Shown: positions 17,529 to 21,436 of the stretch, piece after piece
How positions within the stretch are numbered: position 1 is the stretch's first letter
Layout: every line of letters begins with the position of its first letter
Assembly: GCA_025358885.1 (NCBI GenBank)
Contig: JANYHW010000051.1
Location: 1-38,813, forward strand
Direction: 5' to 3'
Length of the DNA stretch: 38,813 nucleotides
Source: Cytophagales bacterium
Lineage (GTDB): Bacteria; Bacteroidota; Bacteroidia; Cytophagales; Cyclobacteriaceae
Program-made: the position numbers and the translations under genes
The notes under the pieces: generated by a model
The model's database searches: none
The model's input: the letters and a program-made list of their open reading frames with translations, nothing else
What the model was told of the DNA's origin: nothing

Positions 17529-18788
17529 ATGCTCAAGCGATATTATCTTTCCGGAACCCTGATTTTGGCCTGTTTGTTCGCGTTTGGTCAAAAGGCTCTT
17601 CTGCTTCAGGACAAAGCCTATGAAGGACAAATACGCACCATTTTGTGCTATCCGAACCAAACCACCGATGGAAACATGCTCCTGTCTGCCATTGCAAGGA
17701 TGGATGCACAGAACCTGGTACTCGAATTCGATGATTTGCGGGAGCAAAGGCAGAACTATTATGTTAAATTCATCCATTGCAATTATGACTGGAGCAAGTC
17801 AAGCCTGATGGACCTTGACTATATGCATGACTACAATGAGTTTCTTATCAACGATTACTCTTTTTCCATCAACACATTTGTGCCTTACGTACATTACCGG
17901 TTCGCTCTACCACCCGTTAAAATTCCCGGCAACTACGTGGTTATCGTCTATCGCGATGGCAACAAGCAGGACCTTGTATTATCGAGAAGGGTGGCTGTCT
18001 TCGACACCCGGCTGGACCTCGTCATGGATGAAGGCATTGCGGGACTGGGAAATATCCGAAATACGAACCAGGCGCTTAATTTTATCATTGACTACGGACG
18101 AAGCGAAATCATTAACCCCATGGGCAATGTCCATGTCACCCTTCGTCAAAATCAACGATGGGACAATGTAAAGGAGGATATCAAACCAAGCTTCATTCGG
18201 GAAGATGTCAACCAACTGGAATACCGGTTCTTCGACATGGATAAGACATTTCAGGGTGGCAACGAATTCAGGTTTGTTGACTTCAAGTCGCTCAATTATC
18301 CGGGTCAAAATACCTTAAGGCTGGACAGAGGACACAAACCTTATGATCTGTACGTCAACGTCGACCGGCCGCGTCAGTTTCAGTCCTACTCACAATATCC
18401 GGACCTTGATGGCGGGTTTATTGTCGACAACACGGACTTTCAGCAAGAGCCATGGATCAGTGCTAACTACATCAATGTGACATTCGCCCTGCAGACCCCT
18501 GCTATGAAAGGCGATGTATATGTGATCGGGGCATTCAATAGCTGGGCCCGCACGGAGGAGAACAAACTGACCTATGATGGGGAAATGTATTCGAAGAAAA
18601 TGTTGTTGAAACAGGGATTATACAATTATGCCTATTGGACGGGCCCTCCTGAGCCTGACGGGAATCAGATTGAGGGCAATCATTTTCAAACCGAGAACCT
18701 ATACGAGGCTCTCGTATACTATCGTGCCTTTCAGCCGAATGCCGATCTCTTAATTGGATATTTTCCTATTCCAGTGAATCCCCGCTAA
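17529..18788 (+). CDS. Type IX secretion system plug protein (DUF5103)
   Basis: A 419-residue exported protein with a signal peptide (hydrophobic core LSGTLILACLFAFG, cleavage near residue 20). The body matches the DUF5103 T9SS plug family: ILCYPNQTTDGNMLLSAIARM, LVLEFDDLREQRQNYYVKFIHCNYDW, FLINDYSFSINTFVPYVHYRF, PGNYVVIVYRDGN and VYVIGAFNSWARTEENKLTYD. In the type IX system the plug closes the SprA translocon channel on the periplasmic side when no cargo is engaged. No other T9SS gene lies in the window. Its stop shares bases with the stop of the convergent cas6-like gene (CTAA at 18785-18788). Confidence 0.92.
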   Translation: MLKRYYLSGTLILACLFAFGQKALLLQDKAYEGQIRTILCYPNQTTDGNMLLSAIARMDAQNLVLEFDDLREQRQNYYVKFIHCNYDWSKSSLMDLDYMHDYNEFLINDYSFSINTFVPYVHYRFALPPVKIPGNYVVIVYRDGNKQDLVLSRRVAVFDTRLDLVMDEGIAGLGNIRNTNQALNFIIDYGRSEIINPMGNVHVTLRQNQRWDNVKEDIKPSFIREDVNQLEYRFFDMDKTFQGGNEFRFVDFKSLNYPGQNTLRLDRGHKPYDLYVNVDRPRQFQSYSQYPDLDGGFIVDNTDFQQEPWISANYINVTFALQTPAMKGDVYVIGAFNSWARTEENKLTYDGEMYSKKMLLKQGLYNYAYWTGPPEPDGNQIEGNHFQTENLYEALVYYRAFQPNADLLIGYFPIPVNPR

Positions 18789-19585
18789 GCGTAAACGAGC
18801 TCAAGATCGGCTTCTTTCCGGATCGAGTCATGGTTTGCCATATCCAGCATACCAAATCCCTTGTGTGAGAAGTGACCTAGTCCATGCTCATAGACAAACT
18901 GTTGGACTGTTGGAGGAGCAAAGAGAGTGAATGGGAACGTATATCCCCTTACCTCATATTTGATATCAGAATCAAAAAGGGGATAAATGCGTGCAAACTT
19001 TTTGTGGGTCGCCTGAATTCGATTAAGGTAGTCCTTATCGGGAACAAGCTGAAACTTGTAAAACTCTGTCAGTTGTGCGGCCGTGAATTTGCCTGAGCTT
19101 TGCATTTGTGCGATGGTAGCATCGTAAAGCAAATCTGAAAACTCATCACTTTCAGGCGAGATGAAACGTTTGCCCGACTCATCATTAAAAGCTGCGGGCA
19201 TAAGCACAATGGGTGAGATGCACAAGAACTTCACACTTTCCGAAACAGCGACCGGTTCCTCATGCTCCACTACCACTGGTGAAAGTTGGAGCGTTCCAAT
19301 CATGATTTCTTTATGATCAAACAGGATGGCCAGGAAATAGTCGAGGAACCCTTTGTCGGCCGTTGAGAATACCAGGGTCACCCGCGATGAATAGAAGTGA
19401 AGTCCCTTGCGGCTAATTTTGGTTTGTCCTTTTAATCCGGAAAAATTAAAATGAGTGAACTGCTGATAGGCAGGATTCTTTCCGGCTACGACCAACCCTT
19501 TCACCGTTTGCGCCAGGAGAAATTGGTGGTGGAAGGGTACGAAAGCACCCTTATTCTTAAGCGAAAAAACAATCCTGATTCTCAC
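18785..19585 (-). CDS. cas6: Solitary Cas6-family CRISPR RNA endoribonuclease
   Basis: A 266-residue RAMP-fold protein. The N-terminal MRIRIVFSLKNKG and LLAQTVKGLV match the first strand and helix of Cas6, and QFTHFNFSGLKG (42-53) occupies the position of the catalytic loop; His45 and Lys52 are candidate active-site residues. The central stretch IGTLQLSPVVVEHEEPV, FLCISPIVL and FISPESDEFSDLLYDA is typical of the family. The C-terminal glycine-rich loop GLGHFSHKGFGMLDM (about 235-250) is the Cas6 RNA-binding signature. Cas6 cuts CRISPR precursor RNA, yet there is no CRISPR array and no other cas gene here; the neighbours are ychF and a T9SS gene. The start is GTG at 19585. It may act with a distant array or on another hairpin RNA. 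It shares stop bases with the plug gene. Confidence 0.82.
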   Translation of the reverse strand: MRIRIVFSLKNKGAFVPFHHQFLLAQTVKGLVVAGKNPAYQQFTHFNFSGLKGQTKISRKGLHFYSSRVTLVFSTADKGFLDYFLAILFDHKEIMIGTLQLSPVVVEHEEPVAVSESVKFLCISPIVLMPAAFNDESGKRFISPESDEFSDLLYDATIAQMQSSGKFTAAQLTEFYKFQLVPDKDYLNRIQATHKKFARIYPLFDSDIKYEVRGYTFPFTLFAPPTVQQFVYEHGLGHFSHKGFGMLDMANHDSIRKEADLELVYA

Positions 19586-19599
19586 AAAACTTGATCAAA

Positions 19600-19647
19600 G
19601 GGAAAAAATACTACCAGTGACCGCAAAAAATTCGATTGTGCGGGTAG
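19600..19647 (-). terminator. Bulged hairpin with U-run between ychF and cas6
   Basis: Read on the minus strand, CTACC and CGCA (19647-19639) pair with TGCG and GGTAG (19625-19611), 9 pairs with a 6-base bulge, followed by TATTTTTT. It can be the ychF terminator, or a structured leader, since the cas6 start lies only 25 bases downstream. The rest of 19586-19757 is AT-rich without a gene. Confidence 0.4.
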
Positions 19648-19757
19648 CTAAAGTACTAAAAATCAGGCTCTACCAAATATGTGTTGATAGGAATATTTGA
19701 ACTATGGCATAATCAATTGATAATGAGATAATTCTACCCAATCATTTTATTATTCAA

Positions 19758-20855
19758 TTAAACATTAAAACGGAAGTGCATAACATCTCCATCTTCTACA
19801 ACATACTCCTTCCCTTCCACTGCCAGGCGTCCGGCTTCCTTAATAGCAGATTCAGTCTTGTACTTCTGGTAATCTGGAATCTTGATCACTTCTGCCCGTA
19901 TAAACCCCTTTTCAAAGTCTGTATGAATGACTCCAGCAGCCTGAGGTGCCCTCCAACCCCTGTGAATGGTCCAGGCACGAACTTCCTGAACACCCGCAGT
20001 GAAGTACGTAATGAGGTCAAGCAGGTGATACGCAGCCCTAATGAGTTTATAGAGGCCAGATTCCTTGAGTCCATATTCTGCCAGAAAAGCGTCTCGGTCA
20101 TCCTTTGATTCCAACTCAGCAATTTGGGCCTCAATAGCTGCACAGACCATAACCACTTCCGCACCTTCATCTTTCACCAGATTCTTAAGCGCATCAACAT
20201 GCTTGTTTCCGGTAAGTACGGCCGTCTCTTCTACATTGGCCACATATATCACAGGTTTATCCGTTAGCAATTGAAGGTCTTCAAGGGCCTTCCTGTCTTC
20301 TGCATCCGTAATCACTGTTCGTGCATTTTTTCCCGCAAGCAATGCATTCTGAAATAACTGAAGCACAGCAAGTTCCTTTTTGGCCTTTACATCCCCACTT
20401 TTAGCTGTTCGCTCAACCTTGGCAATCTTCTTCTCCACTGATTCAAGGTCGCGGAGTTGAAGTTCGGTGTCGATGATTTCCTTGTCTGCCACCGGATCTA
20501 CCCTTCCATCAACATGGATGATGTTATCGTTGTCAAAACACCTTACGACGTGGGCGATCGCATCCACTTCGCGTATGTTGGCCAGGAATTGGTTGCCGAG
20601 GCCTTCGCCTTTGGAAGCACCCTTCACCAGGCCGGCAATATCCACAAACTCAAAAGATGTAGGAACCACCTTATTCGGGTTGACCAGACCAGAAAGTATA
20701 TTGAGTCGCTCGTCCGGGACAGAGATCACGCCTACGTTTGGCTCAATGGTACAGAATGGAAAATTGGCAGCCTCAGCCTTATTATTGGACAGTGCATTGA
20801 AAAGTGTAGACTTCCCCACGTTGGGCAAACCCACAATTCCACATTTTAGACTCAT
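19758..20855 (-). CDS. ychF: Ribosome-binding ATPase YchF (Obg family)
   Basis: A 365-residue protein of the usual length. The N-terminal P-loop domain has GLPNVGKST (G1), [26 protein letters not shown] (G3) and a YVANVEE motif in place of the usual NKxD, in agreement with the ATP preference of YchF. A coiled coil follows at about 135-200, and the C-terminal TGS domain includes [39 protein letters not shown]. YchF binds ribosomes and tunes translation and stress responses. The frame is open 46 codons further upstream, but the ATG at 20855 gives the canonical [15 protein letters not shown] start. A -7-like TATATTTG lies 66 bases upstream. Confidence 0.97.
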
Positions 20856-20920
20856 AGGATAATTCCTTCTTCGTGTTACCTGGTCAACAGAATCATTTTG
20901 TGAGCCAGCAAAAAAGTCCG

Positions 20921-20928
20921 CAAATATA
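20921..20928 (-). promoter_or_regulatory. Candidate -7 element (TATATTTG) of ychF
   Basis: Exact TAnnTTTG match upstream of ychF. It implies a leader near 60 bases and excludes the longer upstream start at 20993, which would lie before the promoter. Confidence 0.5.
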
Positions 20929-20991
20929 AGGGATGGATGGCGGTTATGCGTGGGGGCCTTAGAAATTAGAAACGCTGATACTCGGTAAGTC

Positions 20992-21025
20992 AAAAAAAAA
21001 ACCCACCTCAGTAAGCAGAGGCAGG
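20992..21025 (-). terminator. Intrinsic terminator of the PUR-type gene
   Basis: On the minus strand CCTGCCTC and GAGGTGGG form an 8-pair stem with two G-U pairs and an 8-base loop, followed by ten T. It is 34 bases after the stop of the gene at 21059-21436. Confidence 0.85.
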
Positions 21026-21058: not shown

Positions 21059-21436
21059 TTAGTCCCACTTTAGCTCTGAGTCAACAGATGCCGCAGGTTT
21101 GGGATCATGGGTTGAATCCAGAATAATTTCTTCCCGCTCTTCGCGAACATGATCGAATTGGGTGAAATCAACACCGGGCATCAACTCATTCTTCACGTGA
21201 TTAACCGTGTTGTTGAGGGCTCCCATGAACTTGTTAAAATCCTCTTTGTAGAGGAATATCTTGTGCTTTTCGTACGTAAAACCTTCGTCATCTTTGTTGT
21301 ACCGCTTCTTGCTTTCGGTAATAGTCAGGTAGTAGTCATTTGACCGGGTTGACTTAACATCAAAGAAATAGGTACGCTTGCCAGCCTTTACTTTTTCGGA
21401 GTAAATCTCGTCTCTTCCGTTCTTGTTCTCTTCCAC
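21059..21436 (-). CDS. PUR family DNA/RNA-binding protein (DUF3276)
   Basis: A 125-residue cytoplasmic protein. One PUR-type repeat covers residues 9-85: IYSEKVKAGKRTYFFDVKSTRSNDYYLTITESKK and YEKHKIFLYKEDFNKFMGAL. The tail is acidic. The family, related to the Borrelia PUR-alpha homologue, binds single-stranded nucleic acid and is nearly universal in Bacteroidota. The start is GTG at 21436, which gives the usual MEExxxGxDEIYS N-terminus; no in-frame ATG is seen close upstream. The gene is a single transcription unit, with a good promoter (TTTG-N19-TATCTTCG) 41 bases upstream and a strong terminator. Confidence 0.93.
   Translation of the reverse strand: MEENKNGRDEIYSEKVKAGKRTYFFDVKSTRSNDYYLTITESKKRYNKDDEGFTYEKHKIFLYKEDFNKFMGALNNTVNHVKNELMPGVDFTQFDHVREEREEIILDSTHDPKPAASVDSELKWD

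Follow-up and report, generated by a model that had tools for sequence, protein, structure and literature searches.

A Cas6-family gene without the canonical catalytic residues, apparently maintained as a housekeeping gene in Bacteroidia with or without CRISPR

The window, that is, the whole stretch of 38,813 nucleotides that was analysed, comes from a Cytophagales bacterium and carries a Cas6-like gene together with a putative leader (Table 1). The original prediction described a solitary Cas6-family RNase in a core-genome setting. The setting was confirmed, since the neighbours were identified by profile as ychF and a type IX plug gene, and the overlap with the latter was also found as described. 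Neither a CRISPR array nor an Rfam match was found in the window, in agreement with the gene being solitary.

Table 1. Features at the Cas6-like locus of the window, and class 1 CRISPR loci of four other genomes that carry the Cas6-like gene
Feature	Position	Strand	Description
Cas6-like gene	18785..19585	-	ORF of 266 aa with GTG start; predicted Cas6 fold; canonical Cas6 His segment missing
Candidate structured 5' leader	19583..19647	-	short hairpin and two A-U6 tracts; ends at start codon
Leader hairpin CCGCA...TGCGG	19621..19643	-	pattern CCGC-N6-14-TTTTTTGCGG, found once in the genome
Promoter-like conserved stretch TGATTTTTAGTACTTTAG	19648..19665	-	precedes leader
ychF	19758..20855	-	directly upstream of Cas6-like gene; NCBIfam TIGR00092 509.9 bits (cut-off 279.2); start set at internal ATG of the 19758-20993 ORF
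Type IX secretion plug gene	17529..18788	+	NF052315 343.7 bits; convergent with Cas6-like gene, stop codons overlap
DUF3276 gene	21059..21436	-	upstream of ychF, same strand; often in the same block
G051 class 1 locus	own cas6 at L151:4283-5080		Cas1b type and array
G038 class 1 locus			III-B: Cmr1, 3, 4, 6 and Cas10; array; own cas6
G057 class 1 locus			III-B; own cas6
G049 class 1 locus			I-B: Cas3, Cas5, Cas7, Cas8b; own cas6

The predicted family membership was upheld by profile searches and by the predicted fold. Pfam Cas_Cas6_C (PF01881) covers residues 109-248 with an E value of 7.5e-20 and a score of 72.5 bits, well over the curated cut-off of 23, and PADLOC Cas6b covers residues 1-250 at 2.7e-27; the score of NCBIfam TIGR01877 (cas_cas6), 57.0 bits, is marginally below the threshold of 58.65. 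With a profile built from 17 orthologues, four PDB sequences, all Cas6 or Cas6-related, were reached at 6e-13 to 4e-14, and the further PDB Cas6 sequences 3pkm and 3i4h at 6e-6. The top five fold matches of the AlphaFold model (mean pLDDT 79.1) are Cas6 or Cas6-related: 3qjj (Z 21.9), 3ufc (21.7), 5yi6 (21.4), 3i4h (21.2), and 3pkm (20.2). Next in rank, at Z 13.1, comes a further Cas6. Full-length Cas6 chains align to residues 1-253 of the model at Z 20-22, as expected for the Cas6 fold of two tandem RAMP domains. The lower rows of the fold search contain CRISPR RAMP proteins and human RNase P (6ahr_E, Z 7.8); the latter likeness, as modelled, falls within the range of a common arrangement. 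The profile matches and the predicted fold mean that the protein is a Cas6 by descent and fold; in other words, the gene is real and is a member of the Cas6 family by sequence and predicted structure.

Cas6 grips RNA through its glycine-rich loop, and its canonical His and Lys cut pre-crRNA. The loop, which had been noticed in the C-terminal region, is retained: G235, G237, G243, and G245 are invariant in 46/46 order-level and 10/10 class-level orthologues. The catalytic role proposed for His45 does not hold, because residue 45 is His in only 7 of the 46 orthologues (Gln in 21, Phe in 6, Asp in 5, Glu, Arg, and Tyr in 2 each, and Leu in 1). For comparison, 19 His-bearing Cas6 proteins of the phylum were used, and the cas6 of G038 was aligned alongside and left out of the 19; among 20 stretches retrieved, 18 had a Cas6 match and two (L172 and L173) had none. 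The column of the catalytic His, mostly in an LH motif, is occupied by His in all 19 and by a gap in all 11 core rows aligned, the core clade being that of the present gene. From the N terminus of the protein through the FS strand motif, the 46 order-level core proteins comprise 42-54 residues, against 55-63 residues in 17 of the His-bearing Cas6, and 68 and 80 in the two with N-terminal extensions. The LH His is likewise missing in all ten class-level orthologues. The His segment is gone in those from families f93 and f125, and is mostly retained, minus the His, in those from f108. The latter (L185, L186, and L187) represent an intermediate form, in which most of the segment is kept, the His is replaced, and ychF already adjoins the gene; this form provides a handle for dating the loss of the canonical His.

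In the 19 His-bearing Cas6, the catalytic Lys position before the FTFS strand is occupied by Lys (17 proteins) or Arg (2), and it corresponds to Lys52 of PfuCas6 in the structural chain alignment (offset of 5 for the tag). The matching residue 44 of the core clade is Lys in only 3 of 46 proteins. The gap in the His column and the rarity of Lys at residue 44 mean that both canonical residues have been lost in the core clade: neither the catalytic His of the PfuCas6 / I-B / III type nor the catalytic Lys of a CRISPR Cas6 endoribonuclease was found. Lys52, which had been considered to be in a plausible catalytic place, is indeed invariant (46/46), but it is placed after the FSG strand, whereas Lys52 of PfuCas6 is placed before its FTYS strand. 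These are opposite sides of the strand, and therefore the shared residue number is a coincidence. Residue conservation and alignment thus argue against an RNase with His45 and Lys52 as its catalytic residues. As a whole, the original prediction correctly recognized a Cas6 relative without CRISPR, but chose the wrong catalytic residues in a protein from which the usual ones have been lost. This loss suggests that the protein probably handles some other cellular RNA.

Seven other positions, His20, Gln21, Lys52, Gln54, Lys195, Lys196, and Arg199, are invariant in all 46 order-level orthologues, and four of these (His20, Lys52, Lys195, and Arg199) also in the ten class-level ones. His20 opens the first helix (residues 20-34) of the AlphaFold model. 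Of the 19 His-bearing Cas6, two have His at the position of His20 and none has Lys at that of Lys52. This pattern is in line with the main rival explanation, namely a working RNase with a relocated site, in which His20, Lys52, and Lys195-Lys196/Arg199 would cut a putative housekeeping hairpin RNA. The catalytic His of Cas6e and Cas6f also sits in helix 1, according to PMC3652601. However, structural alignments show that the His of the PYNHQ motif is present in PfuCas6 and 5yi6 as well, beside their other catalytic segment, and such a His may thus be structural. A relocated active site seems rather unlikely to us, although it is the strongest of the alternatives.

It should be mentioned that loss of the canonical His does not imply loss of cleavage, because SsoCas6 (Sso1437), which resembles the core clade in having no canonical His, nevertheless cuts, as stated in PMC3652601. 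SsoCas6 works in CRISPR with its own set of Lys residues, and the crenarchaeal Cas6 structures are more distant folds (e.g. 4ill and 4ilm at Z 9.3). PfuCas6nc / PH0350 from Pyrococcus (3UFC and 3QJJ; 18% identity, same domain layout) is among the closest folds, tied with 5yi6 and 3i4h. The Pyrococcus species in question have both working CRISPR systems and a working Cas6. The likeness between PfuCas6nc / PH0350 and the present protein is one of fold only; RNA binding without cutting is a trait of the former type, and 3UFC is termed non-catalytic in PMC3652601. Moreover, PfuCas6nc / PH0350 is archaeal, whereas the present clade is bacterial and is kept without CRISPR. The I-B/III CRISPR Cas6 proteins of the phylum (e.g. 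that of G051) share with the core clade the best PADLOC profile (PDLC01782), the FxFS strand, and the glycine-rich loop. They differ in having the LH His, the Lys or Arg before the FTFS strand, and Cas neighbours (7/10 tested gene neighbours of His-bearing Cas6 were Cas proteins), whereas the core clade has neither residue and is often found by ychF.

The distribution of the gene is broad. A match was found in 48 of 58 relatives, the window included. Within the genus, 35 of 36 genomes, again including the window's, carry the gene, two of them only as pieces at contig ends; the sole genome without a match, G004, is 77% complete. Among 341 genomes sampled from the order, 167 gave a match, of which 161 were retained (E 2.7e-70 or better) and six (E 1.5e-5 to 4.9e-11) were excluded as probably ordinary Cas6, as judged by score. 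In the window's own family, 57 of the 59 sampled genomes have the gene, provided that the listed misses cover this family in full. In the phylum sample (395 genomes, 64 matches), nine matches from this family were at 1.6e-116 or better, and the other 55 were no better than 9.4e-24. The impression of an order-confined distribution given by the phylum sample was dropped, since the class sample (247 genomes, 23 matches, six of them from the window's family and seven weak) added ten genomes from three more families, f93 (5), f125 (2), and f108 (3), at 1.7e-72 to 7.6e-52. Named carriers among the best 80 of 378 relatives include Chryseolinea serpens, Ohtaekwangia koreensis, Dawidia soli, Nafulsella turpanensis, and many Cyclobacteriaceae MAGs; Chryseolinea and Ohtaekwangia belong to the Cytophagales. 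In maximum-likelihood trees, constructed with 18 core and 19 other rows and then with 21 and 21, the core clade is on one side of a 100/100 branch that separates it from the His-bearing Cas6 of the phylum. Comparison of close-species pairs gave dN values of 0.03-0.11; dS was saturated in seven of the ten pairs, and omega was 0.011-0.029 in the remaining three. The gene is under purifying selection with strong constraint, and it is apparently a deep housekeeping gene that has been kept vertically. No genome of the order's families f11 and f13 (e.g. G045, G047, and G065) is among the strong core-gene matches listed, and many of them carry Cas1. These two families form a natural set for seeking what compensates for the gene.

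The ribosome-linked gene ychF is the immediate upstream neighbour, in the same orientation, in 30/30 genus loci, in 80/80 named loci, and in 5 of 13 loci from the order's other families, the remaining 8 being not adjacent; these three sets partly overlap. Outside the order, it adjoins the Cas6-like gene in 4 of 10 class-level loci, in two families, and two of these four were checked by profile. The long-settled position that had been deduced from the overlapping stop codons was thus an understatement, as the clade spans families and extends beyond the order. Where the Cas6-like gene has been relocated, the scanned neighbours are metabolic, envelope, or regulatory genes or genes without a named family, and share no theme. 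YchF is described as a regulator of leaderless mRNA translation in PMC8138138, and the Cas6-like protein might be functionally tied to it.

The relation to CRISPR was examined both in the window's genome and across the order. The former (246 contigs, 98% complete) was searched with Cas1, Cas9, RAMP, and Cas6_C profiles and one repeat pattern, a search that an orphan array with another repeat would escape; no Cas1, Cas9, RAMP, or second Cas6_C match and no copy of the relatives' type II repeat was found, nor was any CRISPR locus lacking its own cas6. Of the sampled genomes of the order, 85 carry the core gene together with Cas1, 76 the core gene alone, 43 Cas1 alone, and 137 neither. This association is positive (Fisher p 5.8e-8 on raw genome counts), and we take it to be probably due to clade composition, namely to families lacking both. 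In the window's family, Cas1 is present in 25 of 57 carriers and in neither of the two non-carriers. In the genus, Cas1 is present in 12 of 36 genomes, 11 of which also give a Cas9 match above the cut-off. Genus loci L154 and L155 contain Cas9, Cas1_II, and arrays, and L156, from another family, contains Cas9 and an array. CRISPR among the close relatives is mostly of type II with Cas9. No linkage of the Cas6-like gene to cas genes or to an array was found. A set of 100 core loci, 1.76 Mb in total and with some genomes represented twice, contained a single array-like run, in which an 18-mer occurs three times at intervals near a core locus (L070:935-1082).

All four inspected carriers with class 1 loci (Table 1) have a different cas6 in the CRISPR locus and the core gene elsewhere. 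In G038, G049, and G057, this cas6 is from a separate Cas6 subfamily (PDLC01381/PDLC02104), which was detected by PADLOC alone and left unreported by PF01881. This subfamily was seen in I-B and III-B loci at L149:8564-9226, L152:4171-4986, and L147:17817-18506. The Cas6-like gene is kept with or without CRISPR and is decoupled from it.

These observations bear on the proposal that the protein serves a distant CRISPR locus, as a trans-acting Cas6 for arrays elsewhere in the genome, one that would be retained because class 1 systems are gained and lost through transfer. The order-wide association with Cas1 is in its favour, as is the absence of a cas6 among the genes scanned around the III-A genes of G049 (L148). 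However, G049 has its own cas6 in the I-B locus, 76 of the 161 carriers have no Cas1, the Cas1-bearing genomes of the genus nearly all have Cas9, every inspected class 1 carrier has a different cas6, the canonical His and Lys are lost, and the window's genome is negative for Cas1, RAMP, and Cas9. We consider this role highly improbable. We find it equally hard to credit that the protein belongs to an unrecognised RAMP-type defence complex with other, overlooked subunits. Although the Cas6 fold would suit it and defence genes are often located in conserved blocks, the neighbours here are ychF, DUF3276, and the plug gene and elsewhere mostly metabolic, envelope, or regulatory genes, and the retention in the window's family seems unlike that of defence genes.

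The region between ychF and the start codon contains the conserved promoter-like stretch, which may resemble the Bacteroidota -7 motif, and a leader whose length is 61-82 nt and in which a hairpin and several A-U6 tracts are present. The promoter-like stretch and hairpin leader at 19583-19665 recur in many of L063-L136. GTG or TTG serves as the start codon in 41 of the 46 distinct loci and ATG in four, and none was found in one (GTG or TTG in 45/50 rows, with four genomes listed twice). Such start codons would point to low or regulated expression of the gene.

The leader hairpin was analysed in two alignments, which comprised 42 of 44 genus-type leaders (without L016 and L096, and with the window in place of L001) and 31 of 32 sister-group leaders (without L109). 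In the sister group, the five hairpin pairs are formed in 88.4% of cells, compared with 58.1% for the best slid control. Four of the pairs have changed on both sides, which was equalled in 3/500 shuffles, and the covariation score was reached by 0/500, although related sequences may beat such shuffles without any structure. RNAalifold gave four pairs in the sister-group alignment and none in the genus alignment. The arms of the genus hairpin have a mean pairing of 13.6, compared with 10.1 (sd 0.3) for shuffled arms and 12.9 (sd 0.3) for swapped arms (best of 300 swaps, 13.8), the swap test being based on 41 hand-picked leaders out of 86 distinct ones. Among eight leaders without CCGC, five show stronger pairing with their own partner than the average over the other partners and three show weaker pairing, and only L030 beats the best of the other partners. 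Covariation thus supports the putative hairpin in the sister group, and the support in the genus is only moderate. By eye, some sister-group leaders resemble intrinsic terminators, and in some the AACCCC strand could pair either with a GGGGUU further upstream or with the GGGUUUG that lies at the start codon.

Visual inspection revealed no similar leader in other families. The leader as a general client RNA was rejected, since its pattern occurs once in the window's genome and none like it was seen in other families; for the same reasons, the hairpin leader is a cis element at most. It may be a cis-regulatory RNA. In L043, L034, and L037, unrelated hairpins (e.g. CGCGAAAGCG in L034 and L037) were noticed by eye just upstream of the relocated gene.

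On balance, the protein is best explained, with some reserve, as a Cas6 that departed from CRISPR long ago and is now a housekeeping RNA-binding protein of Bacteroidia, a binder rather than an RNase, which limits itself via its leader. An ancestral Cas6 would have left CRISPR and become a housekeeping gene. It has retained the two RAMP (RRM-like) domains, the invariant basic residues, and the glycine-rich loop, and has lost the canonical His and Lys. As a chaperone or regulator, the protein would then most likely bind a single specific RNA of the cell or a small number of them. Self-regulation is suggested by the hairpin leader ahead of the start codon, through which the protein may limit its own synthesis. 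The analysis demonstrates the family and the fold, the distribution, the independence from CRISPR, the loss of the canonical residues, the purifying selection, and the association with ychF; the binding of RNA, the lack of cleavage, the self-regulation, and any link to translation are what we infer. A more elaborate account is a tentative one that we hold to be possible at best: a CRISPR nuclease fold would have been domesticated in the ancestor of several Bacteroidia orders and fixed by ychF as a translation- or RNA-linked housekeeping factor, with a rebuilt site centred on His20 and Lys52 and, in the family of the window, a leader RNA acting as a feedback switch.

In the literature searched, at the level of titles and abstract openings, no earlier description of this clade was found. 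CRISPR components are usually regarded as gained and lost along with defence. Here, one such component is inherited as a near-universal family gene under strong constraint, and CRISPR is not required. The profile label "Cas6 endoribonuclease" could therefore mislead CRISPR surveys of Bacteroidota. The clade may provide an entry to its RNA partner and to the way in which an RNA-processing enzyme would have turned into an RNA-binding regulator.
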